Assembly (NCBI RefSeq): GCF_907164915.1
Contig: NC_061868.1
Coordinates: 49,413,689-49,477,688 of the forward strand
Origin: Impatiens glandulifera
Taxonomy: Eukaryota; Streptophyta; Magnoliopsida; Ericales; Balsaminaceae
Direction: 5' to 3'
DNA: 64,000 bases
The position numbers and the translations under genes were made by a program. Of this stretch, positions 3,760-44,101 are shown one piece after another (the stretch's first letter is position 1; each line of letters opens with the position of its first letter). The notes beneath the pieces were generated by a model, which was not told the origin of the DNA, ran no database searches, and saw only the letters and a program-made list of their open reading frames with translations.

Positions 3760-5873
3760 TTACTTAGAATAAAGCTCTTGAATAACAGTATGGATACTTG
3801 GTCTTTGATCAGGAACCTCATGTGTGCAGAAAAGAGCAATTTCTGTTAGTTTAGCAGCTTCGGAATTCAAAAGGCTGGTTTTGAGATTCGGGTCAACAAA
3901 GTCTTCCAATCTACTTGATTCGGCTGCAACCCGCATCATATTTGTAAGTTTACGTTTCCCCGAAAGAATCTGAAGGATGATTACCCCAAAAGCATAAACG
4001 TCGCTCTTCTCTGTAAAACGACCTGTAGTTACATATTCAGGGGCCATATATCCAAGAGCCGCGCTAGCCTTAAGAGCTGAAAAGATAACATCATCGGCTA
4101 GGAGTTTCAAAAGACCAGAATCCATTATCAACGGATTAAAGCTCCCATCAAGGAGAATTTTTTCCACTGAAATGTTTTGATGGACTATAGCTGATTTATG
4201 CAAATACCCAATGCCTGAAATTCAGTTGAAGAAAAGACAGATAAGAGAATTGAAGAAAAGACATGTGAATATGATTAAAGCAATACAAGTACTGACCCTT
4301 GGCAATTCCATTGATGATATGAACCCTAGTTGGCCAATCAAGAATAAATCTGCTTCCATCGAGATAATTTGAGAGATTTCCATTGGCGGCAAAATCGTAG
4401 ATAAGGAAACACTGAACCCTACCCTTTGAATAGCAAAAGCCTCTCAGCCTAACAAGATTGTCATTTCTTAAAGATGTTAACAAGCTTAAACCTTTCATCA
4501 ACTCGGCCTCCTCTGACTTACAGCAGTTACCGCTAATACTCTTGATCGCCACATTTGATCCATTTTTCAACGTTCCTTTGTAAACAGTCGAGAAACTCGA
4601 CTTTCCCAACAAATTTAAGTCTGAGAAATACTGGGTTGCTGATTCAACATCTTCTAAATTGAACTTAAACCCATTCAGGACCTCTTCTTCGGCTGGCGGC
4701 TGAGTTCTCGAGAATTCTCGAGATCCATTGGAAATGTTTTCAATCTTCTGTTTCTTCCTTTGGAATTTAAGGAAAACCAGGAAGCCGGCTACTACCAAGG
4801 AGACAGTTACAAAACTGACGCAGGATATGACAATAATTTGCGAAATCTTAAGAGAGTGTCTACAATGTGTTTGGTTGTTGCAGTCAACATGGAAACTTGG
4901 ATCATCGACATTCCCTGCAATAGGATCTTCTGGTTTGTGATCCAATGAAGTGCAAACTCTCAATCCTATGCCACAGAGTCTTGGATTGTTCTCAACGTGA
5001 AGTCCTCCTCCATTTACGAGTCTCTTCAAAGCTTTGAAAGAGTTAAAACCATCACAGAAGTCAAAATCGCGTTTATGTTCAGCTTGTTTAGTTATATGAC
5101 AAAAGAAACCTACTTACCAAGAGGGACAGCGCCAGAAAGAGTGTTGTTTTCGACATTCAATAATTTCAAAGGTAAAATATTAGCCAATGTTGCTGGAATT
5201 GGACCGGAGAAATTGTTAAAGCTTAGATCCAACCTTTCAAGCAATACCAACTTCCCTAGACTTGAAGGAATTGATCCGTTCAATCTATTATGTTGCAAAG
5301 CAAGAACATTTAGCTTCTTGATTGATCCAATGTTTGTGGGTATGATTCCAGTCAAGTGATTACAACATAGCTGAAAAACTGGTAACAAAATAACTAGTTA
5401 ATAATCATGTCATTCGATAAAGATAGGGAATAAAGAGATTAACCTTGAAGACTAGCCATGTTACCAATCTCGGTCGGTATTGAGCCAGAAAGATTATTTA
5501 CATTCAAATAAAGATCAACCAATTCAGTAAGATTTGCTATTTCCTTTGGTATTTCTCCAGATAGAGAATTGTAATGCAAGTAAAGACCAGACAAACACTT
5601 TAGCTCCGCCACCGCCGGTGAAATCTTCCCGGAGAGACCCTTTCCCTGTAAGGAAATATTGGCTACCTTCCTGTGCTCATTACAAGCCACTCCCTCGAAA
5701 GAACCGCTACATGGGTCTCCTTCCATGATCCAGGAAGTTAAGTGTTTGTTCTCTGGATCGAGAGAGGTCTTTATCTCCATTAGAGCTCTCAGCTCCGCAT
5801 TTCCACAAACAGTTGGAGTCCTGTAAAACGCCAAAGTAAGAAGGACAGCAGTCAGATACTTGAGTAAGCCCAT
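3760..5873 (-). CDS. LRR receptor-like kinase, probably a pseudokinase
   Basis: Four exons (5873-5444, 5378-5118, 5031-4297, 4214-3760) join in frame to 626 residues. An in-frame ATG at 5909 would add 12 residues; I prefer 5873 because a hydrophobic signal peptide follows directly (MGLLKYLTAVLLTLAF). Order: signal peptide; LRR N-terminal domain with a CxGSFxGVxC motif; about five LRRs (LxGxIP type); a Cys-containing juxtamembrane stretch; a membrane helix at about 296-318; and a kinase-like domain from about 358. The VAIK lysine is present. The catalytic loop reads HQN (487-489) instead of HRD, and DFG is replaced by DSG (507-509), so phosphotransfer is unlikely. Known plant relatives such as the At4g22730/At5g51560 type share these changes, so this is probably family character rather than damage. 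The ligand and partner are unknown. Confidence 0.87.
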
Positions 5874-9232: not shown

Positions 9233-12200
9233 TTATATGTCCAACAGAAGTTGATAATTGACGAGGCTTCTGTATAGGATGAAAATAGATAGATAATAGT
9301 ATAAGTAGTAGTAGTAGACAACTCCAACACAAACTTGAGGCAAAGTATTTACCAGTTGGAATCTACTACTGTTGTTCATCGTGAGCTGTTCATCTCTATT
9401 TTCTGCTGAATCAACACCAGCATCATCTGGAGGCAGAGCTGGTGATGACGATGATGATGAAGATGAAGGGTGGTTGCTCTTTGGAGGGACTCCTCCAGAG
9501 CTGTCTGCGTTATTCTCTTTGGAAGAAGACTCGTCTTCATCTCTTTCATCCCGGTTTTGTTTGCTAGAATTTCCATCCCTACCATCTTTTGATTTGCCAT
9601 GTACCAAATCTGGCCGAGCTTCCACACCCACACGTCTCAGGTGCAGCTGTCGCTCATAAATATAACAGAGATTATTAATTAATTAATAATTTTAAGGAAA
9701 ATCCTGCTCAAATGGGAAACGTGTTTATTTACCTGAAGATGGAGATTCACTTCGTCTGGTCGCGAAAGAAATGGGAAGTCACCTCCACTCTTCAACTCTG
9801 CTCTTCTTGCTCCCGGGTATCTTTCAATCACCTCGTCTTTCAGTTTTTGAGGAATTGCGCAGTAGTCATTCGTCTTCATAACCCAACACCAACATAATAA
9901 GTATGAGAATTACGCACCAACAGCTTCTACTTTTCATATAATAATAATAATAATTAAGCTGGAAATATAGTGATGCAAACGAGACAGTGATAGATAAAAT
10001 TGAGAAGGCTATTGAGAATATCGAGAAAAGTGGAAAGAAGAAGAAAGCAAAGGAAAATAAATCCAGAAAGACATAAACTTCATAGTGATGTGAACTATGA
10101 TACGAGGGAAGACGAATTTAAGCACTAAGAACAACATTGACTTTAGCATATACTGTCTTGATAATTTCTTGTTCTTCTCTCTAGCTTTGTGAGTTTTGAT
10201 GTTTAATTACTCTCTGTAGTCTTATTCTAAAGAACTTGTGGCAATTTGTGTCACGAGTTGGCCAATGGCACATATGATCTTCGTGGGTCGTGACTTATTG
10301 GAAAAGAGACTCACTTTTTCTAAAATAATAATATTTAAGCTATAAATCTGGTGATGGATAATTGGAGAGATATACATGAAAATTTACTCCACAATTCAGT
10401 ATAAAATTTTCATGCTTGGGTAGCTCAATTAATAAGAGTATTAAACTAAGAAGCTAATGTCTCTAAAAAAGGGTTGTCTATGTCTATCTATGCATATTAG
10501 CATAAGGCTGCAAGAATTAACAAAATGTGCTTTGACAAATACATGTATTTAAGAGCCGAATCAAATTTCAGTATATCCAACTAGCATATGCATCCTATAC
10601 TGTCAAGTCGATCTACTTATAATCGAGGTATTTTTTTAAATATTTCCAGCCCAGTACTATGCATTTAGACATCAGGATCATAAAATTTCACACAACAGAT
10701 GGTTTTATCACATACGTCAATGATTGTGATGTTAGAATCTGTAAGCAGCAGTGATCCAACCGAAGCTGAATTAGTGGTTAAGGTCAATCTGGCTGCCAAA
10801 TCATCCTTCGATAAAGTTTCTACCTGCAAAATCGAATGCTAAACGAACTTAGAAAACAGATAAGAGAAACCCATAGCTATTATATTCATGGGTTACTTGA
10901 ACATTCTTTTTTGTAAGTTTAGTGGGCTATTCCAGCTTTTCAAGCAAGTTCAGTGGACTATTTAATCTTTATTTTCAAATAAAAATAAAAGAAGGGACCA
11001 AACATCTTTAGTGATTCTCCTAGGTCATTGAGACTTATAACCTGGGCAACAACAAAATCCACAGAATCAGCAATGAATGGTTCATGAGGCCCATCTCGGA
11101 TTCCTGTAAGGACATATCTCTTCAGCAAAAAGGAAGGGCTCCATCCAACACTGAGACAAAATTAACAAAGTTAGTACCTAAGCTCCAATATAGAATTTGA
11201 AGTGACCAGGTTAGCTCTTAAGCATTCAACATAGTGGAAAAGATAAATTTTACTACAAGGCCCAAGAAAACTACTAGGCATTAATGATAATAATACGATT
11301 GAAGCATTAAAGTAAAAAGTGTTTACTTCAGAATATTTTGATACCCCAAATGGTGTTTCAAAGGAACAGCCTAATAAATATTCACATCTACCTTCAAAAT
11401 CAAGAGTCTTTTGATTAAAAGCACATCCATATCTAGGTAAGCCAATAACCTCTCCTATCTATGGGAAGTCAGACCTAATTTCACAAAGGTATCATAGTTT
11501 GTATGTCACCAACATAGCACTTCTCTTGCAGCAAAGGACAGATGGAAATATTATACAGTAATACCTATAATAATCTCTTTATTACTTCCATAGAAAATGC
11601 AACCCTCCTTCTCATAGCAACTTACTATATTACTTATACGAACCATAAATACTTGTTTTCCAGTATAAGTAACTAGGGGCTTTCTCCTATGGTTTCTACT
11701 ATGCAAATTGAAGCTTTTGTTTTCTCAATTCACCAATAGCATCTTGAATTTCAATCAGGTGGCAGTACTTCAGTTAACTACATATTAACTTTGATCGACC
11801 ATCTCACCAATAAATGAAATTTCTTTTAACTGCGGAAAATTCATCTACAGAATACAAAAACTTAAGTTGAATAGGTAATAAAAGTGATCAAGACAATATA
11901 GAAGGCACATAAGTAACTAGGAAGATCGACATAAAATATAATTATAGAACCGTACATTGGAGCCCAAGGCATTGCAGTTGAGAAACTTTGTGTCTCCAAG
12001 AATGAATTTGAGAGGATCAATGACCTAACTCGACGAGGACGATGCTGTGCAAAGAGTTGTGCTAGGAATCCTCCAAGTGATGTACCATAAAGATGTACCT
12101 GTTAGATTTAAGCTGGTATATGACATGTACCTTGAACTTTTATGAAGATAAACACACAAAATTTATGTCAGAGGAATGAAAAATAAAACTGTTTCCTTGC

Positions 12201-14438: not shown

Positions 14439-15755
14439 TCACCAGGCACTTTTTTTCTTGTAGTAACTCAGATACCATTTCACAAACTTCTTCAATCCCC
14501 CTTCTAAATCAGTAGTAGGCTTATATCCAAGTTCTATTTCTGCCAAGCTTATGTTTGCATGTGTGAATGGTACATCCCCATTCCTTGGCAAAGCCATGAA
14601 CTTCTTTCTAGCCTTCACTTTCAGAAGCTTCTCCAGTATGCTAACAAGATTGCTCACGGGCACAGGCGATGTGTTACCCAGATTGAAGATTCTCAATTGT
14701 GCAGCACCCTTCTTCTTCCCACCACTTCCAGTGCTCTTCTTTGATGTGTCAACAGCTGCCAAACAACCCTTCACTACATCATCAATGTATGTAAAATCTC
14801 TTGCAACTGTTTGATGATTTGAACCTTCAAAGATTGTAATTGCTTTCCCCTTTAATATATCCCTAGTGAAGAAGAAGTAAGCCATGTCTGGCCTCCCCCA
14901 TGGCCCATAAACTGTGAAGAACCTCAAACCAGTAATTGAAAGACCATAAATATGATTGTACGAATGAGCAATTCCTTCAGCAGCCTTCTTCGTCGCAGCA
15001 TATAAGCTGGCTGGGTGGTCAGTTCGATCCTTCTCCGAAAAGGGTACCTTCGAGTTTAATCCATATACCGAGCTCGAAGAAGCCCAAACAATTGCTGGTT
15101 GTGGATTTGCAGATTTACATACATCAAGAAGAGTAACGAATCCAGCAACGTTACTATGAATATACGAATTTGGGTTCTGCATTGCGTACCTCACACCAGC
15201 CTGAGCCGCCAGATGCATCACATGCGTAAATGCGACAACATCGAATAGCTTCTGCAGAAGGAGATGATCGTTAATGTCACCTTCAACTATGAAAACACCA
15301 GAGCGATTAAGAAGGTTCCGACGAGACTTCTTCAGTCCAACGTCGTAGTAGCTATTGAAATTGTCGAGTCCCACGACGCCATCGCCGCGCTGTTTAAGGG
15401 AAATGGAGACGTGACTACCAACAAAGCCGGCTGCACCGGTGACGAGCACAGTAAGACCGGAGCGTGAACGTACGCGAGCAGATGAGCGAACGCGGCGCTC
15501 CCAGGCGGGTCCACCCCAATTTGTAGTCTGGATGCTGTGGCGAGTGGAATCGACGGAGGAGGTGGGTAGAGAAGATGGGGATAGGAGGAAGACGAGGATA
15601 ATGAGGGTGAGGAAACAAAGGGACCAAATAGTGAGTCTGTTTAGAGATGCTTGGAAACGGAGACGATGAATGTAAGGCTGTGATTTCTCCGGCTTGAATT
15701 TTCCGGCGATCGATGGAACGTCGAGATGGGAAGGTACCGGTTTATACTGAGTCAT
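14439..15755 (-). CDS. GAE: UDP-glucuronate 4-epimerase (GAE family), type II membrane protein
   Basis: Single-exon gene of 438 residues. It converts UDP-glucuronate to UDP-galacturonate, the donor for pectin synthesis in the Golgi. The start at 15755 (MTQYKPVPSHLDVPSI) is preferred over the in-frame ATG at 15791 because known GAE proteins begin this way. A short basic cytosolic tail is followed by a membrane anchor at 41-60, then a short-chain dehydrogenase fold: NAD-binding GAAGFVG (107-113), a Ser-rich active-site strand (227-229) and the catalytic YxxxK (Tyr252, Lys256). Length and motifs match the family, and nothing is missing. The protein ends in KKKSAW. By position it corresponds to the Arabidopsis GAE5 locus (At4g12250), though sequence alone does not settle which of the six paralogues it is closest to. 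Most plant GAE genes are intronless, as here. Confidence 0.94.
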   Translation of the reverse strand: MTQYKPVPSHLDVPSIAGKFKPEKSQPYIHRLRFQASLNRLTIWSLCFLTLIILVFLLSPSSLPTSSVDSTRHSIQTTNWGGPAWERRVRSSARVRSRSGLTVLVTGAAGFVGSHVSISLKQRGDGVVGLDNFNSYYDVGLKKSRRNLLNRSGVFIVEGDINDHLLLQKLFDVVAFTHVMHLAAQAGVRYAMQNPNSYIHSNVAGFVTLLDVCKSANPQPAIVWASSSSVYGLNSKVPFSEKDRTDHPASLYAATKKAAEGIAHSYNHIYGLSITGLRFFTVYGPWGRPDMAYFFFTRDILKGKAITIFEGSNHQTVARDFTYIDDVVKGCLAAVDTSKKSTGSGGKKKGAAQLRIFNLGNTSPVPVSNLVSILEKLLKVKARKKFMALPRNGDVPFTHANISLAEIELGYKPTTDLEGGLKKFVKWYLSYYKKKSAW

Positions 15756-15759
15756 CGTG

Positions 15760-17748
15760 GGTGGTATTTGGTGGGTTCGATCAAAACCCAATTAAAACCC
15801 TTTCCTTTCCTTTCCTTTCTTTGTTGTTATATTTCCGTGAAAATCGAAGATATCTCTCTGAATCTCTCTCGGCCCTCTTCCTTAATATGAAATGCAGAAA
15901 CAATCGATCAAATGGCCATGCGAATTCTCTCACCTCTCACTTTGATGATTCTGCAATACTTGAGCGAAGAAAGCAAAGCAACATCTTCTTTCTTTCTTTC
16001 TATCTGATGATTCTTTCCTTCACAATATTTACTGGAAAAAGGAACCATTTCTTCAATATTAAATTCAGTCGTCGGTTTTATTTTGTTGATTAATTAATTA
16101 TTTTCTTTTTAAAACCAATTATTTCTTAATTTTTAATTGAAGGTCCCATATATACATTGCTAATAAATCATTTTTACATTTTTTTAAGGTAAATATATAT
16201 GTGTAAGTCAAAATGAGATTTATTTTTGCCTGGCAAATCTCCTTTGGATTTTTCCTCTATTTGTTTGCTTATATGGTATGGTTAATTCTATTATAAACAT
16301 TACCCTAAGCTATCTAATTAACATTATTACCCTTTATTTAAAAAAAAATAAACTTGTATTATTAAATAATAGGGATATACAAATAAATATATTATATATA
16401 TATATATATATGTGATATATTTAATCTATTAGATAAAAATTTTACATTAGGATAATTTAAGAGAGAATTAATGTCTAACATATTAAAAGTTACTAATTTA
16501 ATTTTCAGGTTGTCTAGATTTTTGATATTCGGTTGAATGATGCTTGATTTCATTGGTAATTGTAGAAAAAATTGAATTGATATGACTTATAGGATATGAT
16601 ATTTTTTTATTTTGATTAATTATGTACTAAAAAAAATAAACTTTAGGGTTTAGGGTTAACAAAAAAAATAAAGTTTGATAATATGTTGATGGATGTATTT
16701 TATTTTTTCTTATTTCGATTATTTTGTAGTTTGAAAAAAATATGATTTTGTGAATTTTGTGCTACTATTTTTTTTTATGTGCGAAAGCTCTATTAGTGTT
16801 GGATTTTTTTATTTGACAACTTTAGGAAGTGATTGGTCTTTTCGATTATCACTTCTTTGTATTTTGTATTTTTTTTAGTTTTTCAAGTTATTTTATTTGA
16901 TGTTTATGAATTCTTGTAATTTAATTTAATGGGTTGAAATTAACAATTTCAAAGAACTAGGATGATCAAAATTTCAGGTCTATAACAGTACTATTTTCCT
17001 CTTACAATTAAGCTCTAATTTTAAAAAATGGAAGAACCCATCCTAGAGTTTTTTATTCGTTATATTATTATTATTTTTCCTTTTTCATAGTGGAGTTAAA
17101 TGGAAATGAAATGAAGCCATAAATTGTTAGTTTTTTAGTTAACTTTTCCAACATTTTCAGATTCTATTAATCAGATTTCTAAAACCCTTCGTTTATTTAG
17201 TAATATAGGCCTCATTTGAATTTTGAAAATACATTTTATTTCTCTTTTATATCTGAATATAGATTGTCTACATATAAACTTAGATAGATATAAATTCATA
17301 AATTTATTTATATAGAAATATTTCATATAGTATTTCCAAACAGGACTAATAATAATACCTGGTCAAGATATAATTAAGCTCTATGTTTGAGTTGGACCCT
17401 ATATGTTTTTTTTTTTAAGTTTGAATCGGATTAATATTATTATTTATAATTAAAGTTAATGTTAAAAAATTATACTATATAAAATAAGAATAAACTATTT
17501 GAATATTATAATGTTATGATAAAAAATAATAATAAACTATATTTGTGGATAATGCTTCAAGAAAGAAAAAGGTGAAAATGAAAAAGAAACATCTGAAATA
17601 AATGCTCTTTTAGGTAAGTAGATGGCACACTAATTAAAGTCTGCAATTTTACTTTACCTTAAAGTACAAGAAAAACATGATAATCAAATACAAATAGTTA
17701 CAAATGAGATCTATTTTTTTTTTTACCCACATAATTGTCCACGTTTAG
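15760..17748. other. GAE promoter region and AT-rich intergenic DNA
   Basis: The first few hundred bases contain pyrimidine-rich CTTTCCTTT repeats (15796-15825) and CTCTCT tracts typical of a 5' UTR and core promoter for the minus-strand GAE gene. Beyond about 16.1 kb the DNA is AT-rich with (AT)n at 16391-16411 and no supported gene. Confidence 0.5.
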
Positions 17749-17757
17749 ATGGGAAAT
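17749..17757 (+). repeat. probable 9-base target-site duplication, left
   Basis: ATGGGAAAT here matches ATGGCAAAT at 20459-20467 in 8 of 9 positions, directly outside the inverted repeats of the element at 17758-20458. Nine-base duplications are the hallmark of Mutator-like insertion. Confidence 0.6.
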
Positions 17758-17860
17758 TTGACGAAATGACCTTAAAGACTGGGTTATTTGACCTGGTGGT
17801 AATTTGATAATTTAATTGCGCTCGTGGTGATTTTATTTTTTTTGGACGATTTTGCCCTTG

Positions 17861-17893
17861 TCGCGAAACGCTAAGTCACTTAGCGTTTCGCGA
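17861..17893. repeat. 33-base perfect palindrome in the left arm
   Basis: The half-site TCGCGAAACGCTAAGT is followed by one spacer base and its exact inverse complement. The identical 33 bases recur at 20324-20356 in the right arm. The sequence would form a 16-bp hairpin in single-stranded DNA or RNA. Confidence 0.95.
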
Positions 17894-18162
17894 AGTGAAA
17901 ATGTGTGAAATGTCAAAATTACCCTTACTATTTAATATAACTTCCCTCATTTTTTTTCATTTCTTTTCTTCTCCTTCTCTCTCTTCCCGTTCTTCTCCTC
18001 CTTCTCTCTATACTGGGCGGCGGCGATCGGCGGCGAAACGACAATGAGTTTCACGACGAGCACGAGCACTGTTCCACTTGGTACGTTTATCTTATGATAT
18101 TTCAAGTTTATTGATGTTTGGTTTATGCATCTTCGAATCACTGTTGTTTAGGGTTTACTTCC

Positions 18163-18212
18163 CGTTTCGCTAAGGACTTACCGTTTCGCTAAGGACTTAT
18201 CGTTTCGCTAAA
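18163..18212 (+). repeat. direct repeats of the GTTTCGCTAAG motif
   Basis: CGTTTCGCTAAGGACTTA occurs twice in tandem, followed by a third, shorter CGTTTCGCTAAAT. The inverse form (TAAGTCCTTAGCGAA) recurs near 19793-19807, extending the inverted symmetry of the element inward. Confidence 0.85.
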
Positions 18213-18225
18213 TATTTTAACATGA

Positions 18226-18297
18226 GTTGTCTTAGCTCAGCTGGTAGAGTGCGTGGCTTTTAACCATGTGGTTGTGGGTTCAATTCCCACAAATGGT
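18226..18297 (+). tRNA. tRNA-Lys(UUU)-like sequence, probably a pseudogene
   Basis: A 72-base cloverleaf can be drawn. The D stem is GCTC/GAGT. The anticodon stem CGTGG/CCATG encloses CTTTTAA with anticodon TTT at 18259-18261. The T stem is GTGGG/CCCAC around TTCAATT. Internal A box (TAGCTCAGCTGGTAGAG) and B box (GGTTCAATTCC) are well kept. The acceptor stem is poor: one mismatch and four wobble pairs out of seven. It lies inside the Mutator-like element, so it was probably captured, or is the head of a tRNA-derived SINE. A T run follows at 18308-18324 and could terminate Pol III. Confidence 0.6.
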
Positions 18298-18360
18298 GTT
18301 TTTATAGTTTTTTTTTTTTTTTTTACTTTTGCATAAATCAAATGCTCATTTGTAGAGAAA

Positions 18361-18607
18361 TGGTTATGTTTTAATTTGATACATAAATGAAATGGTATAG
18401 AAAATGTTTGTTATGGTTATGTTTTAATTTGATACATAAATGAAATGGTATAGAAAATGTTTGTTATGGTTATGTTTTAATTTGATGCATAAATGAAATG
18501 GTATAGAAAATGTTTGTTTGTTTTTTTTTACTTTTGAATAAATCAAATGTTCATTTGTAGAGAAATGGTTATGTTTTAGTTTGATGCATAAATGAAATGG
18601 TATAGAA
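18361..18607 (+). repeat. 53-base minisatellite with a displaced fourth copy
   Basis: Three head-to-tail 53-base units begin TGGTTATGTTTTAATTTGAT at 18361, 18414 and 18467. A fourth partial unit begins at 18566, preceded by the same leader (ATAAATCAAATGYTCATTTG) that precedes the first unit. The array therefore grew by both unit and block duplication. It lies in the Mutator-like element next to the tRNA-like sequence. Confidence 0.9.
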
Positions 18608-18738
18608 AGAAATGAAACAAAATCAGCTTAAACATTCATTAACAAATACCAAAAGCAGCTTAAACATTCATTAACAAATACCAAAGAAAGTAGTTCACTT
18701 TTTACATATTATTATTTTCTTAATTAGAATTAATTTAT

Positions 18739-19196
18739 TTATTTACTGAAGTAATCTTCAGTCCTGCCCTTGAATCCAATTTGTCCAAAAGTCAATGCCA
18801 AGAACAATCTCAAGTGTCAAGTAACCAGCCTAACCTGTTTGTTTACTTGTTTATGTATATTAATATTAGAAAGAAACAGAAATATATTTTAATTGCTCAG
18901 TCCCAATGCTGGAAAGAGTCCGTTGATCGCCAGAAAACTGGAAGGTGCTAACCATCCGATCAACCCAAACCCAATCACGTTCAGATCTTTCCGTAGCCAA
19001 TCCCTCTCGAAACTACAATCAATCAAACAAACAAATTTCAATTATACTCTTATTTTCTTACATTACATACATACATGATACATACCACGTAAGCTTTCCA
19101 CCTAAGGCTTTTGCAACCATCAAAGGATTCATGGCTCTAACTGGAGCCTTTAGGAATCCTGAGCTCAGTCTCACCGGTGATGAAGACAGACAAGAT
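18739..19196 (-). pseudogene. captured photosystem I subunit O (PSAO) pseudogene
   Basis: Reading the minus strand, 19196-19086 codes for the end of a transit peptide (SSGFLKAPVRAMNPLMVAKA). A GT-AG intron at 19085-19013 joins in frame to FERDWLRKDLNVIGFGLIGW, and the stretch to about 18890 continues through APSS and AING. A frameshifted SIGTE follows. After a gap, 18834-18739 reads LTFGQIGFKGRTEDYFSK and a stop. This is the order of PSAO, a small thylakoid membrane subunit of photosystem I involved in light-harvesting balance. The gene is broken: an in-frame TGA (18817-18819) replaces a conserved Trp codon, there is a frameshift, and the middle segment is lost. Retention of the intron shows capture from genomic DNA rather than from cDNA. 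It sits inside the Mutator-like element. Confidence 0.85.
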
Positions 19197-20067
19197 CCGT
19201 TTCGCTAAGTGCTTAGCACTTAGCGAAACGCTAAGCACTACGGTAAATCCTTAGCGGGAAGATGAAACGGAACTCATATGATCCAAGATTATATGCAAAA
19301 CCCATTAATGAACCATACTTAACGAAATGGTCAAATATGAACCAAATAACAAATATGAACCCACAAATATGAACAAATATGAACCAAATATGAACCAAAT
19401 ATGAACGAAATATGAAAAGGTTTTGAAATGAAGAAAATGTAAACATGAACATAACTGTTTATCAGATCTGAAATGAACATCTACCTCGACGACCTTCAAA
19501 TCCTTAGAATCGGAGATCTGCATACCCTCTCGAAACTACAATCAATCAAACAAACAAATTTCAATTATACTCTTATTTTCTTACATTACATACATACATG
19601 ATACATACCATGTAAGCTTTCCACCTAAGGCTTTTGCAACCATCAAAGGATTCATGGCTCTAACTGGAGCCTTTAGGAATCCTGAGCTCAGTCTCACCGG
19701 TGATGAAGATAGACAAGATCCGTTTCGCTAAGTGCTTAGCACTTAGCAAAACGCTAAGCACTTAGTGAAACGCTAAGCACTTAGCGAAACGGTAAGTCCT
19801 TAGCGAATCTTCCCTAAAACGGAACTCATATGATCCAAGATTATATGCAAAACCCATTAATGAACCACACTTAACGAAATGGTCAAATATGAACCAAATA
19901 ACAAATATGAACCCACAAATATGAACCAAATATGAACCAAATATGAACGAAATATGAAAAGGTTTTGAAATGAAGAAAATGTAAACATGAACATAACTGT
20001 TTATCAGATCTGAAATGAACATCTACCTCGACGACCTTCAAATCCTTAGAATCGGAGATCTGCATAC
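19003..20067 (-). repeat. tandem duplication of about 525 bases inside the Mutator-like element
   Basis: Unit 1 runs 19003-19526 and unit 2 from 19527 to about 20067. Each contains the PSAO intron and first-exon fragment (second copy about 19527-19722), a cluster of GTTTCGCTAAG palindromes, a run of CAAATATGAAC repeats, and a stretch whose minus strand reads MQISDSKDLKVVEVDVHFRS. Unit 2 has an expanded palindrome cluster (19720-19807). The duplicated PSAO exon carries no extra coding potential. The source of the MQISDSK sequence is not recognised and may be a second captured fragment. Confidence 0.85.
19199..19229. repeat. 31-base internal palindrome
   Basis: The half-site GTTTCGCTAAGTGCT is followed by one base and its exact inverse complement. 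A related, partly mutated and expanded set lies at 19720-19807. Confidence 0.9.
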
Positions 20068-20323
20068 CCTAAACCCTAGAATCGAAAACCTGCATACAAA
20101 ATAGATTTAGGGTTATAAATCTTGTAAATCTGTATAGATAAAAACATAAATGAATTATGTTAGAAGATCTTGTAAATCTGTATAGATCTGTATAGATAAC
20201 CGCCGCCGTCCGTCGCCGTCCGTCGTCGCCGCTGGCCGCCGTGAAGGAGAGAACGGGAGAAGAGAGAGAAAGAAAACTAAGAAAATGAAAATATTTGAGT
20301 ATTTATACTAACCCTAATCCACT

Positions 20324-20356
20324 TCGCGAAACGCTAAGTCACTTAGCGTTTCGCGA
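20324..20356. repeat. 33-base perfect palindrome in the right arm
   Basis: Base-for-base identical to the palindrome at 17861-17893. It lies at the mirror position in the right inverted repeat, about 100 bases in from the end of the element. Confidence 0.95.
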
Positions 20357-20467
20357 CAAGGGCAAAATCGTATAAAAAAAAATATAGAACCACGAGCGCA
20401 AAAAAATTATAATATTACCATCAGATCAAATAACCTCATCTTTGAGGTTATTTGATCGATGGCAAAT

Positions 20468-21370
20468 ACTTATTATATTTAGTTAATACTTTTGATTGGG
20501 TGCATGAAATAGCAAATCTTATATAAATTTATAACACTATTATTTTGTATAGACTATTTAATTAAAAAAAAATATTTTATCAAATATATAGTGAATGATC
20601 ATACACATCATAACATTTAAATATCAAAATCAAAATATACCGTGAATGATAAGCCCAACAAATTATAAGACTAGGACAGACACATATACAAAGCAGCCCA
20701 ATATAATATCCTAAAAATAATATATATATTAACTAAAACATAATGTATTTTTTTTATTAATTTTTTTAATTAAAAGATTGTAGGACTAGGCAGTCCAGAA
20801 GCCATGAATGGCATGAATTTATCAGTACAAAGTAAGATGTTAGATCAAAAAAAATTGTTAATTCATTTGGGATTGTTTTTCTCGATTACTCTCTAGCCAA
20901 TTAATTATATATTTTTTAATAAATTTTTTCTACTTTGAATTCTATTTTTTATATTATTGTACTTAAATTACTTTTTTTTTTTTTTTTTAATTTACATTGA
21001 TTAAAAATTAAAAAAAAAAAAAGTCTCTCAGTACCTACAAAATTTACTTTTTTTTTTTGTAATGCACTCCATATAATTATTTTTTTCATGTAACAAATCT
21101 TAATTACCACCAACATATTACCATTCCCTAAATTATTAACACCATTACAAACCCCCCATATTAAAAACAACATCAAAATTAACTAACAAAGCAGGATTAT
21201 CAATCCAAAATTCATGTTTAAATTACCAACATTATAACATTGCAGCCATACCTAAGCACATAAGAACAGTATCATCATGTTTAAATTTGCTCACATATGA
21301 TTGTAGATTCAGTTGTGTTCTTGACCTTGGTCAAACTAATTTTTGAGCTAATATATAATATAAGAATGTA
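20468..21370. other. AT-rich intergenic DNA between the element and the first CYP706 fragment
   Basis: A/T homopolymers are frequent (for example 20971-20990 and 21009-21022). The missing second exon of the neighbouring P450 fragment should lie here if it existed, but no trace of it is visible. Confidence 0.5.
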
Positions 21371-21797
21371 GCATTTCTCTTACAAATAGTTTGCGAATGT
21401 TTCTCCAATAAGGGCCTGAGGAGGACCAAGTAATGTCCATAGCATTGTGGGTGAGTGTCAAAGCCGCGATTGTTGGGTCCCGGTTGGAGAAGACCACATC
21501 TAAGTCGCGGCAAACTTGTTTAGCCAGAGATGGTGAGCTAACCACAATACAGAGTTTGCTCCCGAGCCAGAGTTTGTAGATGGGGCCATATTCTTCGGCC
21601 AGTTTTGAGAATTCGTGATGCAAGTTTTTGCCAAGAAATGGGAGGTAACCCACAATTGGGAGGCCTCTTGGACCGGGTGGCAAAGGTGCTACCACTAACT
21701 TGTTCCCTTTTCTCATCCATAGCCAACACAAAATTGCTTCTATCAGTAGTAGTAGAAGAACTTGATAGAGATAATTTTGTGATAGATTTGCAGACAT
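21371..21797 (-). pseudogene. CYP706-like P450 fragment (copy A), first part of exon 1 only
   Basis: From the ATG at 21797 the minus strand codes for about 140 residues nearly identical to the start of the other three copies: membrane anchor, PPGPRGLP hinge, and the helix-C region ending RKLFVREML. Homology stops abruptly at about 21371, where the others continue SNSNIDACYHLR; a few unrelated residues and a stop follow. The rest of exon 1 and all of exon 2, including the heme site, are absent, so no functional P450 can be made. The 5' flank and TATA box resemble those of copy C (37.6-39.3 kb), so A is the counterpart of C in a duplicated two-gene block. Confidence 0.93.
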
Positions 21798-21902
21798 TTT
21801 TTGTTTTGTTTTGTTTTGTTTTGCAACAGACTGCAAAGGTTGATCTAAAAGACAAATGAGACTTGTCTGCAATACCCAAACTAAGCTTTGTCTTGGAGAT
21901 TT

Positions 21903-21910
21903 TATTTATA
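21903..21910 (-). promoter_or_regulatory. TATA box of CYP706 copy A
   Basis: TATAAATA on the minus strand, about 105 bases upstream of the ATG. The same box lies at matching distance before copies B and D. Confidence 0.55.
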
Positions 21911-23391
21911 CTTCAATATGTAACAAAATCTAGAAAATTTGTGATAGACATTCATCTGTTTCTGGCCTAGTCATCTTCAGATATAAGAAAACCAAATTCT
22001 AATGACAAAGGCCTTTTTGTGTGGCGAATGATCTTTTGAATTAATATCAAAGAAAATTAAAAGAGAAATTATTTGCTTAAGTCATTAATATCCATAGATT
22101 TAGATGTCAAATACGGCACAATAAATTCATTCCTTTTATAAGCTATTAAGTTGGATATAAGAAAAACAAAAACATATTTTAATGTTTAATAAGTTGAAAT
22201 GATTGATCGCAAAAATTAACATGTATAAATCCACTATAAAATTTGGTCAAAGTTAACATCAACTTTTCGATATGAATTTTGTTTTAAATTTCATACAAAT
22301 CAAACATTATTTCATTCCCCTTTTATCAAATGATTAAATCAATTAACTCATTATCTAAAATATTAAAATATCTTTTATTTTAAATTATTATTTTTTAATT
22401 TTATCTTATTTATATATATCAATCCCTTTTAAATTTTTTTATTAAAAATAATCATTACCTCCTCAAAATTATCATCATCACTCAATTTTTTCTCTCTTAA
22501 TTTTTTTTTTTAAAAAAAAACACTGCTACCAAACAATGCCAACCTTCTCTTTGTGACTAATTAAACTCTTTGAGGTCAAGCCTATAATACCTAATAGGAT
22601 AAGAATCAAAATAAGTGTAATGACCTAAAAAAAATGATATAGTACATACTTAAATTGTCAATAAAAACATTAATTTAATAATTTTCAAACATTTAACCTA
22701 AAGTTTAAATAAGTTCATAAAAGTTAAGGAGATAAAGTTAAAAAATAAGATTTGGATTGACATTAAACTTCAGAAATTGCACTATTCACATATGAAGAAG
22801 GGTCTCAATATGTTCCCAACAATTGATTATTTTTAGGAATGAATATTAATATGAATGTTTATCTTCTCAGCCATAAGATTAGAAATGAAAGTCTTTTAGA
22901 ATTATTTTTATTTAAAATTTTATTTTAATAATTGTTAACACGTTTGATCAATTTTGTTCTTACTTAAAAGAAATATATATTTGACATCTATATATTTTTT
23001 TTTATGTTATCACTTATTTATATATATAACCAACCGGTATAAAGATAAACCATTTGCTATAGTCATTAAATGTGGACCAACCAAATAAGATAAATTAATA
23101 TTTTGATTTATATATTCTCTAAGTAAATTAAAACGACGGCTAATTAGATAAAAGATAAAAGGTAGGAAGATATATAAAATTTGTTAATTTTCATACAAAT
23201 TGAATTATAATAATAGTTTATATATTAAAAATAAAGATGAAAAGTCATTTTTAATGACGTGATATACATACTTATAAAATTATTTTAAGAAATGTCTCAA
23301 TTTGGGAAGTTTGAATGAAGATCCTGATAGCCTAAGCTGCAAATTTATTTACTTAAAAAAGAAAAGAAAAAACATTAACATTTCAGGTAAA
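21911..23391. other. 5' flank of copy A, then spacer to copy B
   Basis: AT-rich. From 22540 to about 23330 this sequence is collinear with 39.9-41.8 kb between copies C and D (for example GTGACTAATTAAA, CTTTGAGGTCAAGCCTATA and AAAGTCATTTTTAATGACGT). It lacks the roughly 1 kb of inserted sequence present there. No gene is visible. Confidence 0.7.
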
Positions 23392-23640
23392 AAAGGGATG
23401 GAACAGCCTTATCCCAACGATATACCGATGTGGGATGAGTTCCAGCTGAAGGTTAAAACAAGATAAGCCCGACCAGGCTTCCAGGCGCTCGGTCGCATGG
23501 AGGCCGGGCGTCTGCTTTTCTCGCTGTGGCCATCTACTCTTTCTCGGTTACGAGATAGGCATACAGCTCGGTCGCGTGGCTAAGGGTTTATCGGTCACGT
23601 CCGAAAACCCTCAGTCCAGCCATTAACCTGAATATATATT
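23392..23640. repeat. GC-rich block in the 3' flank of CYP706 copy B
   Basis: About 250 bases of much higher GC than the surroundings, with GCTCGGTCGC occurring twice and an inverted CGACC/GGTCG pair. It is repeated, about 90% alike by eye, at 41852-42100 downstream of copy D. No long open frame. CCCACATCGG on the minus strand (about 23429-23438) resembles the plant snRNA upstream element, but no snRNA follows. Nature unknown; possibly an old transposon remnant carried along by the P450 duplication. Confidence 0.6.
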
Positions 23641-23913
23641 TTTTTTCTTCTGTTTTTCTCAATTCCAATCAAACAATCATCATTAACATCATTCAAAATC
23701 AACTCATTTATGACCAGATTATACCAGTTGGGGTGGAAATCCATCCATCACCCAATTTTCAAATATCCCTTATCTGGAAATTAGGCATTCAACATATACC
23801 TTTTGCATAATCATTAAATTGGATTTTAAAAGGAAGGGTTGATACCTTATACAAGCTATTGACATTTTCTTAATTAATTATTGCCAATTTGAAAGAAGAA
23901 AAAAGTTTGAAAA

Positions 23914-25539
23914 TCATACATGATCAAGAACCTCATCCGAAAGCCTTTGCATTGGCACTGCAAGTAGAGGCATCTTCTTCTTCACCACTATCCCAAATTC
24001 CTCTGTAAAATCGACTGCTTCCCCTCCTTGGGGCAAATGCCAATCGAATGAGTGCAAAAGCGAAGCCAATATATAACTTACCATCTTTTCAGCCAAAGGA
24101 ATCCCTGCACAAACCCTTCTTCCAGATCCAAACGGAAAGTAGTGAAGATTGTTTCCATTGTAATCCCATTTACTTCCTTCTTCCCCACCCAAGAATCTCT
24201 CAGGCCTGAACTCAAGTGGGTTTTCCCAAACATCTGGGTCCCTTTGAATTGCTGAAGTGTTCAGAAAGACCTTACAATCCTTGGGAATGGAGTATCCTCC
24301 GACGATGCAGGTCTCGCTTGGACGACGCGGAACGTTCAATGGAAGAGGAGGATGCAATCGCAAGGTTTCCTTCACAACAGCATCCAAATACCTAAACTTT
24401 GGTAAATGGGTTTCTTCAACTAAGCTCTTATCTCCAACAACTTGCGTTATCTCTTCTTGAACCCTCTTCATCATTTCTGGGTTGTGCAAAAGTTCTGCCA
24501 TCGCCCACTCCACCGCCGTCGCGGACGTGTCTGTTCCGCCCACCAATATGTCCTGCAGGTAATAGATTGAATTAGTTTCTAATACTATAGATTGAATAGA
24601 AGAGAAGTTAGCTTACCATTATCAATGCCGTCATCTGAGTTTTATTAATTGATATATCAGAATCTTGACAGTTTTTAAGTCCAGTAGAATCTGCAGGAAG
24701 TCCTTTTTACCAATATCACCATCTCCATTTTTAGCCGCCTTCTCTTTCTCTCGTGTATCTATAAGAGGATTCAAGAAACCATCAAGTTCCGCAATAATTT
24801 CGTTTGCTTGCTTTTTCACGCCCTGAAAATCGTATCTCGCTAGAATGGGGAAGAAATCAGAGATGTTAGGAAATTCCAGTAATTTAACGAATTTAGAGGC
24901 TATGGCTTGAAACTCAGCTCCATGTCCATCATGATCCCCTCCTTTAAATGTGCTGCTGCCACCCCATATCATGCTAATAAAAGCATTGAATTCAGTCAAG
25001 AAAGCGATCTTGCCAATCTCAACAGGCAAGCCACAGTTATCATGCAAATGCTTGATTGTTTTCATAACTTGTTGTTTTCTAAGATGATAACAAGCATCAA
25101 TATTTGAGTTACTAAGCATTTCTCTTACAAATAGTTTGCGAATGTTTCGCCAGTAAGGGCCTGAGGAGGACCAAGCAATGTCCATGGCGTTGTGGGTTAG
25201 TGTCAAAGCCGCGATTGTTGGGTCCCGGTTGGAGAAGACCACATCAAAGTCGCGGCAAACTTGTTTAGCCAGAGATGGTGAGCTAACCACAATACAGAGT
25301 TTGCTCCCGAGCCAGAGTTTGTAGATGGGGCCATATTCTTCGGCCAGTTTTGAGAATTCGTGATGCAAGTTTTTGCCAAGAAATGGGAGGTAACCCACAA
25401 TTGGGAGGCCTCTTGGACCGGGTGGCAAAGGTGCTACTACTAACTTGTTCCCTTTTCTCATCCATAGCCAACACAAAATTGCTACTATCAGTAATAGAAG
25501 AACTTGATAAACATAATTTCCTGATAGATTTGCAGACAT
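23914..25539 (-). pseudogene. CYP706-like cytochrome P450 (copy B) with a one-base frameshift
   Basis: Exon 1 is 25539-24617 and exon 2 is 24552-23914, with a GT-AG intron. The product would be about 520 residues, with N-terminal anchor, PPGPRGLP hinge, oxygen-binding GGTDTS, ETLR, PERF and heme loop FGSGRRVCAG. Exon 1 is 923 bases long, one short of a whole number of codons. The lost base lies at about 24676-24680: copy D has CCTTT preceded by an extra T and copy C has TACTTT, where B has only TTTTT. Reading then runs out of frame to a stop at 24631, before the I-helix, ExxR and heme site. Exon 2 shows no damage, so the lesion is recent or is a sequencing error in a T run. CYP706 enzymes are ER-bound monooxygenases, some acting on terpenoids; the substrate here is unknown. 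Confidence 0.85.
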
Positions 25540-25603
25540 TATTTTGCTGCAGTAGGAAAGTTTAGCTAAAAAGAGATATTAGATTTGTGTGTCTGGAAGG
25601 TTT

Positions 25604-37582: not shown

Positions 37583-39270
37583 CTAAATCATACATAATAA
37601 ATTAGCTAAATCATCCGATAACCTTTGCATTGGCACAGCAAGTAGAGGCGTACTCTTCTTCACCACAATCCCAAATTCTTCTGTAAAATCGACTGCTTCC
37701 CCTCCTTGGGGCAAATGCCAATCGAATGAGTGCAAAAGTGAAGCTAATATATAACTTACCATCTTTTCAGCCAAGGGAATTCCGGCACAAACCCTTCTTC
37801 CCGATCCAAATGGAAAGAAGTGAAGATTGTTTCCATTGTAATCCCATTTACTTCCTTCTTCCCCACCCAAGAATCTCTCAGGCCTGAACTCAAGTGGGTT
37901 TTCCCAAACATTTGGGTCCCTTTGAATTGCGGATATGTTCAGAAAGACCTTACAATCCTTGGGAATGGAGTATCCTCCGACGATGCAGGTCTCGCTTGGA
38001 CGACGCGGAACGTTCAAAGGAAGAGGAGGATGCAATCGCAAGGTTTCCTTCACAATAGCATCCAAATACCTAAACTTTGGTAAATGGGTTTCTTCAACTA
38101 AGCTCTTATCTCCAACAACTTGCGTTATCTCTTCTTGAACCCTCCTCATCATTTCTGGGTTGTGCAAAAGTTCTGCCATCGCCCACTCCACAGCCGTCGC
38201 TGACGTATCTGTTCCGCCCAACAATATGTCCTGCAACAGGTACATAGAATGGATTATTTATCATAAGGCAATTAAAGAAGTCAACTGATCAGTTTATACA
38301 TTATTATTTTAGGATAGAAGAGAAGTTAAATTACCATTATCAATGCCTTCATCTGAGTTTTATTGATTGGTATATCAGAATCTGGACAGTACTTTAAATC
38401 CAGTAGAATCTGCAGGAAGTCCTTTTTACCAATATCACCATCTCCATTTTTAGCCTTTTCTTTCTCTCGTGTATCTATAAGAGAATTCAAGAAAGCATCG
38501 AGTTCCGCAAGAATTTCGTTTGCTTGCCTTTGCACACCCTGCAAATCGAATCTTGCGAGAATGGGGAAGAAATCAGAGATGTTAGGCAATTCCAATAACT
38601 TTAGGAATTTAGAGGATATGACATGAAACTCAGCTCCATGTCCATCATCATCATGATCCCCTCCTTTAAATGTGCTGCTGCTGGTGGTGCCACCCCATAT
38701 CATGCTAATAAAAGCATTGAATTCAGTCATGAAAGCAATCTTCCCAATCTCAACAGGGAAGCCACAGTTATCATGTAAATGCTTGATTGTTTTCATAACT
38801 TGTTGTCTTCTAAGATGGTAGCAAGCATCAATATTTGAGTTACTAAGCATTTCTCTTACAAATAGTTTGCGAATGTTTCTCCAGTAAGGGCCTGAGGAGG
38901 ACCAAGCAATGTCCATGGCGTTGTGGGTGAGTGTCAAAGCAGCGATTGTTGGGTCCCGGTTGGAGAAGACCACATCAAGGTCGCGGCAAACTTGTTTAGC
39001 CAGAGATGGTGAGCTAACCACAATACAGAGTTTGCTCCCGAGCCAGAGTTTGTAGATGGGGCCATATTCTTCGGCCAGTTTCGTGAATTGGTGATGCAGG
39101 TTTTTACCAAGAAATGGGAGGTAACCTGCGATTGGGAGGCCTCTTGGCCCGGGTGGCAGCGATGCTGTTACTAACTTGTTCCCTTTTCTCATCCATAGCC
39201 AACACAAAATTGCTACTATCAGTAATAAAAGAACTTGATAAAGATAATTTTCTGATAGATTTGCAGACAT
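37583..39270 (-). CDS. CYP706-like cytochrome P450 (copy C), intact
   Basis: Exon 1 is 39270-38335 (312 codons) and exon 2 is 38230-37583, giving 527 residues. Start MSANLSENYLYQ leads a membrane anchor, then the hinge PPGPRGLPIAG, I-helix LLGGTDTS, ExxR (KETLR), PERF and the heme loop FGSGRRVCAG with Cys near 460. All P450 signatures are present. Compared with B and D it has a small insert in exon 1 (TTSSST and an extra run of Asp) and a different C-terminus: RLSDDLANLLCMI instead of RLSDEVLDH. The altered end comes from a short tandem repeat of AAATTAGCTAAATCAT at the stop. The upstream TATA is altered to TGTAAATA, so expression may differ. An ER-bound monooxygenase is expected; substrate unknown. 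Confidence 0.92.
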
Positions 39271-39364
39271 TTTTTTTGTTTTGTTATTGCAACAGACTGC
39301 TAAGGTTGATCTAAAAGACAGATGAAACTTGTCTGCAATACCCAAACTAAGATTATGAAGATTT

Positions 39365-42365: not shown

Positions 42366-44000
42366 TCATGCATGATCAAGAACCTCATCCGAAAGCCTTT
42401 GCATTGGCACTGCAAGTAGAGGCGTCTTCTTCTTCACCACTATCCCAAATTCCTCTGTTAAATCGACTTCTTCCCCTCCTTTGGGCAAATGCCAATCGAA
42501 TGAGTGCAAAAGAGAAGCCAATATATAACTCACCATCTTTTCGGCCAAGGGAATCCCGGGACAAACCCTTCTTCCAGATCCAAATGGAAAGTAGTGAAGA
42601 TTGTTTCCACTGAAATCCCATTTATTTCCTTCTTCCCCGCCCAAGAATCTCTCAGGCCTGAACTCAAGTGGGTTTTCCCAAACATCTGGGTCCCTTTGAA
42701 TTGCTGAAGTGTTCAGAAAGACCTTACAATCCTTGGGAATGGAGTATCCTCCGACGATGCAGGTCTCGCTTGGACGACGCGGAACGTTCAAAGGAAGAGG
42801 AGGATGCAGTCGCAAGGTTTCCTTCACAATAGCATCCAAATACCTAAGCTTTGGCAAATGGGTTTCTTCAACTAAGCTTTTATTTCCAACAACTTGGGAT
42901 ATCTCTTCTTGAACCCTCTTCATCATTTCTGGGTTGTGCAAAAGTTCTGCCATCGCCCACTCCACCGCCGTCGCGGACGTGTCTGTTCCGCCCACCAATA
43001 TGTCCTATAGGTGGTATTAAAGAAGGCGACTGAATTAGTTTCTAATACTAAAGATTGAATAGAAGAGAAGTTAACTTACCATTATCAATGCCTTCATCTG
43101 AGTTTTATTGATTGATTTATCAGAATCTTGACAGTCCTTTAAGTCCAGTAGAATCTGCAGGAAGTCCCTTTTACCAAAATCACCAACTCCATTTTTAGCC
43201 CTCTCTTTCTCTCGTGTATCTATAAGAGAATTCAAGAAACCATCAGCTTCCGCAAGAATTTCGTTTGCTTGCCTTTTTACTCCCTGAAAATCGAATCTCG
43301 CTAGAATGGGCAAGAAATCAGAGATGTTAGGAAGTTCCAGTAATCTAAGTAATTTAGAGGATATGGCATGAAACTCAGCTCCAACTCCATCATGATCCCC
43401 TCCTTTAAATGTGCTGCTGCCACCCCATATCATGCTAATAAAAGCATTGAATTCAGTCAAAAAAGCAATCTTGCCAATCTCAACAGGCAAGCCGCAGTTA
43501 GTACGCAAATGCTTGATAGTGTTCATAACTTGTTGTCTTCTAAGATGGTAGCAAGCATCAATATTTGAGTTACTAAGCATTTCTCTTACAAATAGTTTGC
43601 GAATGTTTCGCCAATAAGGGCCTGAGGAGGACCAAGCAATATCCATGGCGTTGTAGGTGAGTATCGAAGCAGCGATTGTTGGGTCCCGGTTGGAGAAGAC
43701 CACATCAAGGTCACGGCAAACTTGTTTAGCAAGAGTTGGTGAGCTAACCACGATACAGAGTTTGCTCCCGAGCCAGAGTTTGTAGATGGGGCCATATTCT
43801 TGGGCCAGTTTTGTGAATTCGTGATGCAGGTTTTTACCAAGAAATGGGAGGTAACCCGCAATTGGGAGGCCTCTTGGACCGGGTGGCAAAGGTGCTACCA
43901 CTAACTTGTTCCCTTTTCTCATCCATAGCCAACACAAAATTGCTACTATCAGTAGTAGAAGAACTTGATAAAGATAATTTTCTGATAGATTTGCAGACAT
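42366..44000 (-). CDS. CYP706-like cytochrome P450 (copy D), intact
   Basis: Exon 1 is 44000-43080 (307 codons) and exon 2 is 43004-42366, giving 519 residues. Motifs: N-terminal membrane anchor (YQVLLLLIVAILCWLW), hinge PPGPRGLPIAG, I-helix GGTDTS (312-317), ExxR (369-372), PERF (424-427) and heme loop FGSGRRVCPG with Cys455. Length and intron position are normal for CYP706. It differs from B most visibly in exon 2 (VVGNK, KWDFSGNN and VCPG). The 3' flank, including the GC-rich block, matches that of B, so D and B are counterparts in a duplicated two-gene block. TATAAATA lies 94 bases upstream. The Arabidopsis counterparts by position are the CYP706A4-A7 tandem array (At4g12300-At4g12330). 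Substrate unknown. Confidence 0.94.
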
Positions 44001-44093
44001 TTTTTGCTTTTGTTTTTTGCAGCAGACTGCAAAAGCTGAGCTAAAAGAGATGAGACTTGTCTGCAATACCAAACTATGCTGGCTGGAAGGTTT

Positions 44094-44101
44094 TATTTAT
44101 A
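44094..44101 (-). promoter_or_regulatory. TATA box of CYP706 copy D
   Basis: TATAAATA on the minus strand in the context GGTATAAATAAAACCTTCC shared with copy B. Confidence 0.6.

Follow-up and report, generated by a model that had tools for sequence, protein, structure and literature searches.

The feature at 17751–20457 (right limit about 20457) of the analysed stretch of DNA from Impatiens glandulifera (Himalayan balsam, Balsaminaceae; 64,000 nucleotides, here referred to as the window; positions without a locus name are window positions) is a non-autonomous Mutator-like element (MULE) of the kind known as Pack-MULE. It very probably belongs to a Pack-MULE family that acquired a piece of PSAO, the gene for photosystem I subunit O, together with a tRNA-Lys gene, in which PSAO was broken before most copies arose and in which changes private to the window copy followed later; the host as donor and movement in trans are part of this reading. 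The family itself, its superfamily, the target duplications of the siblings, the lesions common to them and the double cargo are established by the comparisons described below.

In the proposed model, an ancestral element would have taken up, perhaps by repair or template switching, a tRNA-Lys gene and a PSAO piece that began in the middle of exon 1, reached the 3' end and retained its introns. On either side of the acquired DNA are palindromic 19-bp arrays, and arrays of this type also separate the main frames of a relative that encodes a transposase. PSAO would then have gained a deletion across exon 2 and intron 2 with a frameshift, as well as a nonsense change, before most copies arose; the cargo copies would be moved in trans by the MURA transposase of full-length relatives whose ends match; and the window copy would afterwards have lost its right tip and duplicated a unit containing exon 1. 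The family is a recent natural example (~2% divergence among copies) of a mobile element amplifying a damaged fragment of a nuclear gene for photosynthesis along with a tRNA gene. Its copies help to order the damage to PSAO, and with its arrays it can be tested directly whether, outside Arabidopsis, host cargo can benefit from the anti-silencing system of the element that carries it.

Termini and dispersed siblings of the element

The element is bounded by terminal inverted repeats (TIRs) at 17751–17897 (plus strand) and 20320–20457 (minus strand, without its tip), which were delimited by self-comparison of the arms and by the ends of sibling copies; each contains an identical 33-nt palindrome (17861–17893 and 20324–20356). 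The long inverted arms reported in a first-pass annotation of this DNA, made from the sequence alone, hold up: 17764–17897 and 20320–20453 are 86% complementary over 134 nt, with a local score of 179 compared to maxima of 32 in 500 shuffles and 76 in 910 control pairs of the same spacing from the window. This length lies within the 100–500 bp usual for MULE TIRs, and MULE target duplications measure 8–11 bp (PMC4858842, PMC3903597 and PMC9168764, in the parts of these papers available). As expected for a Pack-MULE, no transposase of its own is found: the open-reading-frame list contains no frame at all of at least 110 aa within 17751–20457, and the matched segments of the copies include no transposase.

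A genome search with the left arm gave 1895 first-look candidates, which is not a copy number, and 40 places were scored, namely the window copy and 39 siblings with 89–99% identity. The cargo of these siblings, which the annotation had proposed to search for, includes PSAO in 36 of 39 (determined by segment comparison for the short loci, 30 including the window, and in fetched stretches; L059 lacks exon 3), a proportion that applies to the top-scoring left-arm places and not to the genome as a whole. These 36 copies are spread over eight numbered contigs (C1–C4 and C6–C9) of the 653.9-Mb assembly, in which the window itself is on C7, and have the same ends. The left end is exactly GGGAAATTTGAC in 31 of the 39 siblings, seven others have 1–4 mismatches to the 21-base end pattern, and the remaining one, L063, is altered (8 mismatches). 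On the right, CAAATTTCCC was present in the searched right part of 32 of the 36 PSAO siblings. L056 (3.4 kb) and L065 contain about 1.2–1.7 kb of other sequence between the left arm and the remainder, likely as nested insertions, and the flank of L050, outside the element, contains a Rfam group II intron match (556–689, 52.8 bits), perhaps an organellar insertion.

Since 31 of 39 siblings begin with GGGAAATTTGAC, seven of the nine letters of the left 'target duplication' are part of the element itself, whose start is 17751. This undoes the near-identical 9-base flanking duplication that had been proposed for the window copy, ATGGGAAAT/ATGGCAAAT: 17751–17757 (GGGAAAT) is the element terminus, and at the right end the AAATTTCCC of the siblings has been lost. 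Chance pairs of 9-mers with at most one mismatch, allowing ±3 bases of slack at both ends, occurred at 127 of 8692 control positions (1.5%). The true left flank was not re-found near the right end of the window copy (best match 6 of 8 bases, 80 start positions). The right end and adjoining bases form an imperfect palindrome (20424–20480, detected as a self-match), which may bear on the loss of the right tip.

No target duplication was found in the window copy, and the family is characterized in this respect by its siblings, of which 31 of 36 have perfect duplications of 8–10 bp. In a first batch, tested with sibling-type ends and a slack of one base, the count was 19 of 20, and in a second it was 12 of 16. 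The first batch comprised twelve duplications of 8 bp, six of 9 bp and one of 10 bp, all perfect, and one of 9 bp with mismatches allowed; those of L032, L037 and L048 are A- or T-runs and hence weak evidence. When ends of different copies from this batch were paired as a control, only 1 of 380 pairs had a perfect duplication. The misses in the second batch were L054, L063, L065 and L067, where L063 and L065 say little because their ends are uncertain (8 and 6 mismatches for L063; a right end inside the copy for L065). Transposition of the family follows from these individual duplications. That a PSAO pseudogene locus with unrelated inverted repeats was instead multiplied within larger duplicated blocks would fit the broken PSAO and a window copy without target duplication, yet is next to impossible for 36 copies that have the same ends on eight contigs, 31 of them with a perfect duplication of their own. 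Duplications of 8 bp are also made by hAT elements, and a hAT identity was rejected on account of the MURA-type transposase encoded by copies with the same left end.

The surroundings of the window copy include a UDP-glucuronate 4-epimerase gene about 2 kb away (14439–15791, minus strand) and several closely similar minus-strand frames (21348–25578, 37583–39363 and 42366–44096), which we take to be tandem cytochrome P450 genes.

Two cargoes and the order of damage

The PSAO piece lies on the minus strand, where the annotation had described the end of exon 1, a correctly bounded GT-AG intron, exon 2 and the PSAO C-terminus, and all of these were located: the 3' part of exon 1 (19086–19196), the 73-bp GT-AG intron 1 (19013–19085), an exon 2 remnant with an internal deletion and a frameshift (18895–19012), and exon 3 (18739–18834), which encodes a native-like C-terminus and contains an in-frame TGA (18819–18817) upstream of a native-like stop (18741–18739). 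A non-coding stretch ending in AG (18835–18894) is probably the 3' part of intron 2 left after internal deletion. The conceptual product matches PsaO_TMD (PF22832, E=1.1e-17), PsaO chains in the PDB (top chain 8wgh_O, E=1.6e-39) and 310 proteins at E≤0.001 (the best 120 of 310 listed), and on these sequence grounds the identity of the cargo piece as PSAO is certain. A retrocopy was rejected as its source, since intron 1 is retained; the donor was presumably the host's own gene. Judged from its sequence, the copy in the window is dead, with deletions and a frameshift in exon 2, a deletion that extends into what is presumed to be intron 2, and the TGA, where these lesions are named relative to the native gene from protein alignments and not from host DNA.

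The second cargo is a tRNA-Lys (TTT) gene or pseudogene at 18226–18298 (plus strand; Rfam 53.7 bits), followed by a 53-bp tandem repeat (18360–18608). A tRNA was called by ARAGORN in 33 of the 36 PSAO siblings (not in L059, L063 and L065) and in none of the three other siblings, with sibling Rfam scores of 44.7–58.3 bits in the 20 loci searched. The earlier reading as a Pack-MULE with an intron-containing PSAO stands as regards an acquired piece in a Mutator-like element, and was incomplete as regards this tRNA. Carried by the element, the tRNA-Lys (TTT) occurs at dozens of sites scattered over the genome; both it and the palindromic arrays described below had been overlooked.

The window copy contains a duplicated unit of ~530 bp that includes exon 1. 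Its inner (19002–19528) and outer (19525–20070) copies, both on the minus strand, have four bases (CCCT) in common at the joint, and the outer copy brings a second exon 1 part (19609–19719, minus strand) and an array of its own (19720–19807). When the arrays are set aside, the inner and outer copies show 3 substitutions over 449 aligned bases and 10 gap columns, and the duplication is young on account of this small number. The re-duplication of part of PSAO inside the element, as first described, is thus borne out; it is present in one of the 21 full copies and looks private to the window copy. Some other copies (L002 and L024) have a short tandem duplication of ~20 bases within exon 1.

Deletion, frameshift and nonsense change, which had been attributed to events in this copy, do exist, while their origin in it is contradicted by the siblings. 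Counting the window copy, 36 of 37 copies have the deletion join across exon 2 and intron 2 (the deletion is larger there in L043), and 32 of 37 have a stop codon in exon 3; lesions private to the window copy were rejected for this reason. The string with the TGA occurs in 30 of 37 copies, L043 has TGA with an altered neighbour, L061 has TAA, exon 3 is missing from L059, and four have TGG (L063, L065 and L067 read directly, L064 by elimination). Aligned PSAO proteins have Trp at this position, which argues that TGG is the older state and that the nonsense change came after the deletion. This order is favoured by the cargo, in which L064, L065 and L067 have diverged more than any other copies; the cargo tree is midpoint-rooted only. 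An arm tree rooted with the three transposase-type copies speaks against it, as L063–L065 and L067 fall within the family on long branches and are not basal; recombination between copies could reconcile the two. With the TGG copies nested in the arm tree, the order of the lesions rests on TGG as the state of PSAO in other plants.

The 21 full copies, including that in the window, have a median difference of 2.0% (range 1.2–3.6%). With T=k/2r and r=1.3e-8, a rice rate that may not be that of Impatiens (quoted in PMC4858842, in the part available), their age comes to about 0.8 million years. The congener I. noli-tangere separated from I. glandulifera about 26 Mya (PMC12598466).

Three I. glandulifera proteins named PSAO-like (P0018, P0043 and P0241) keep a stretch lost from the present family and lack others, and their first residues are not PSAO. 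In P0241, residues 4–26 agree with the translation of 19851–19783 at 18 of 23 positions (score 81, compared to a maximum of 53 in 200 shuffles). The start of P0018 resembles a translated palindromic array (score 40, reached by 0 of 5000 shuffles, best 39; 136 other short proteins score at most 28), and P0043 begins with the same letters as P0018. An AlphaFold model of P0018 (pLDDT 50.5, pTM 0.25) was left unused. On account of these array- or element-like N-termini the three proteins are probably cargo of related elements, representing a second, less broken PSAO lineage linked to such elements, and they call for caution when gene families are counted. An effect of the dead cargo on the host, by which hairpin or read-through RNA would give rise to siRNAs matching PSAO, is improbable in our estimate; palindromes and duplicated exons are present, and captured genes are described as siRNA reservoirs in maize (PMC13317346, available text).

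Transposase-bearing relatives and palindromic arrays

Three of the 39 siblings (L066, L068 and L069) have the left arm in common and a different interior without PSAO cargo. In a domain scan that covered the L066 frames and the long frame of L069, both L066 and L069 were found to encode PF10551, PF03108, PF00872 and a SWIM domain (PF04434), so that related copies with a MuDR-type transposase exist. L066 also has a matching right TIR, ~9.2 kb from the left end, near 9513, with its tip lost; this end was located by alignment and was not detected with the 21-base end pattern. That the element is Mutator-like, as had been claimed from the sequence alone, is thereby backed: L066 and L069, which have its left arm, encode MURA-type transposases, and L066 has the matching right TIR as well. 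In the segment comparison, the PSAO and tRNA segments were unmatched in the transposase-encoding left-arm copies. Relatives of this full-length type would presumably supply the MURA that moves the cargo copies in trans. In one copy, L066, the transposase is accompanied, in separate frames, by an Ulp1 C48 frame (E=5.5e-24) and by DUF1985, with one frame above the curated cut-off (E=6.6e-10) and a second below it (2.4e-07).

Palindromic arrays of a 19-bp motif flank the cargo, one on the left (18157–18211) and one adjoining PSAO exon 1 (19197–19264), and are also found between the main frames of L066. With at most one mismatch, TTAGCGAAACG occurs 11 times in the window, always within the element (0.66 expected), and the motif occurs 49 times in the L066 element (at most 2 in 50 base shuffles). 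In L066, no motif falls in the four frames taken as genes, and the seven clusters with several motifs avoid the frames (equalled in 59 of 20000 random placements), a test that used frames chosen by the analyst; a further plus-strand frame of 215 aa (5057–5704) overlaps an array. Subject to this overlap, L066 has short-motif tandem repeats in non-coding parts, as VANDAL/KIU elements do. The arrays are predicted to fold into strong hairpins, and those upstream of exon 1 have 1 to 8 units (35 exon-1 starts).

Three functions may be considered for the arrays. They recall the targets of VANC/KIU anti-silencing, a link we draw by analogy: according to the available text of PMC5735166, the DUF1985-containing VANC proteins of Arabidopsis recognise and bind short motifs tandemly repeated in non-coding parts of VANDAL elements and strip methylation, and KIU versions carry Ulp1 (PMC13317346, likewise in part). 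The TIR-MULE family may thus run a similar system at its 19-bp arrays, and a cargo derivative that kept them would have used it in trans, spreading a dead PSAO and a tRNA-Lys despite the small-RNA risk to host genes; we regard this as doubtful. That the arrays serve capture rather than escape from silencing, with perfect hairpins stalling replication and template switching importing host DNA (FoSTeST model), is possible, if on balance not expected. The strong hairpins adjoining PSAO exon 1 (24-base upstream strings), the variation from 1 to 8 repeats and the window duplication with its 4-base joint suit such a role, as does the association of repetitive TIRs and microhomology with capture in animals (PMC8277862, available part), whereas the arrays between the element's own genes in L066 do not; nor are capture and anti-silencing mutually exclusive. 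Subterminal or internal binding sites for the transposase, suggested by the same core in both TIRs and by the binding of a TIR motif by maize MURA (PMC3310237, in part), seem rather unlikely with so many L066 arrays lying kilobases from the ends.

Relation to known elements

The literature searched, in which subscription journals are thinly covered, contained no report of an Impatiens element with PSAO and tRNA-Lys, nor any on Mutator-like elements of Impatiens or on capture of tRNA-Lys by a Mutator-like element; matches for PSAO together with transposable elements concern maize, as far as their available text goes. The comparisons below likewise follow the accessible parts of the papers cited.

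Long TIRs, duplications of 8–11 bp, an acquired gene piece and the lack of a transposase are features in common with the Pack-MULEs of rice, tomato and other plants, including PM-ZIBP of tomato, which has 14 copies with one gene piece (PMC3310237). In contrast to these, the Impatiens family has at least 37 copies including that in the window, bears two unrelated cargoes (one of them a tRNA gene) and has palindromic arrays next to them. The barley MULE Hvu_Abermu has similar GGG...CCC ends, TIRs of ~140 bp and duplications mostly of 9 bp and in some cases of 8 or 10 bp, but is 8.2 kb long, encodes its own transposase and accounts for about 10,000 repeats (PMC9168764), whereas the window element measures 2.7 kb, contains cargo and belongs to a family in which 8-bp duplications are commonest. 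In the Ssk-FB4 Pack-TIR family of Drosophila, a host gene likewise lies inside a multicopy element with repetitive TIRs and tandem duplications; Ssk-FB4 is, however, an animal element of the Foldback type with a young protein family, unlike the dead PSAO frame of Impatiens (PMC8277862).

L066 resembles the VANDAL/KIU (VANC) MULEs of Arabidopsis in its MURA-type, Ulp1 and DUF1985 frames with short-motif tandem repeats between them (PMC5735166, PMC13317346), and Ulp1-bearing MULEs of melon, grapevine and rice are also named (PMC13317346). The likeness is close, but VANDALs are called non-TIR MULEs, whereas the Impatiens family has TIRs of ~140 bp and a motif that is a 19-bp palindromic unit, and its anti-silencing activity is putative. 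The window element belongs to a known kind, the Pack-MULEs, and is unusual in bearing two unrelated cargoes, one of them a tRNA gene, in having spread after the death of PSAO, and in its arrays, which may link it to anti-silencing.
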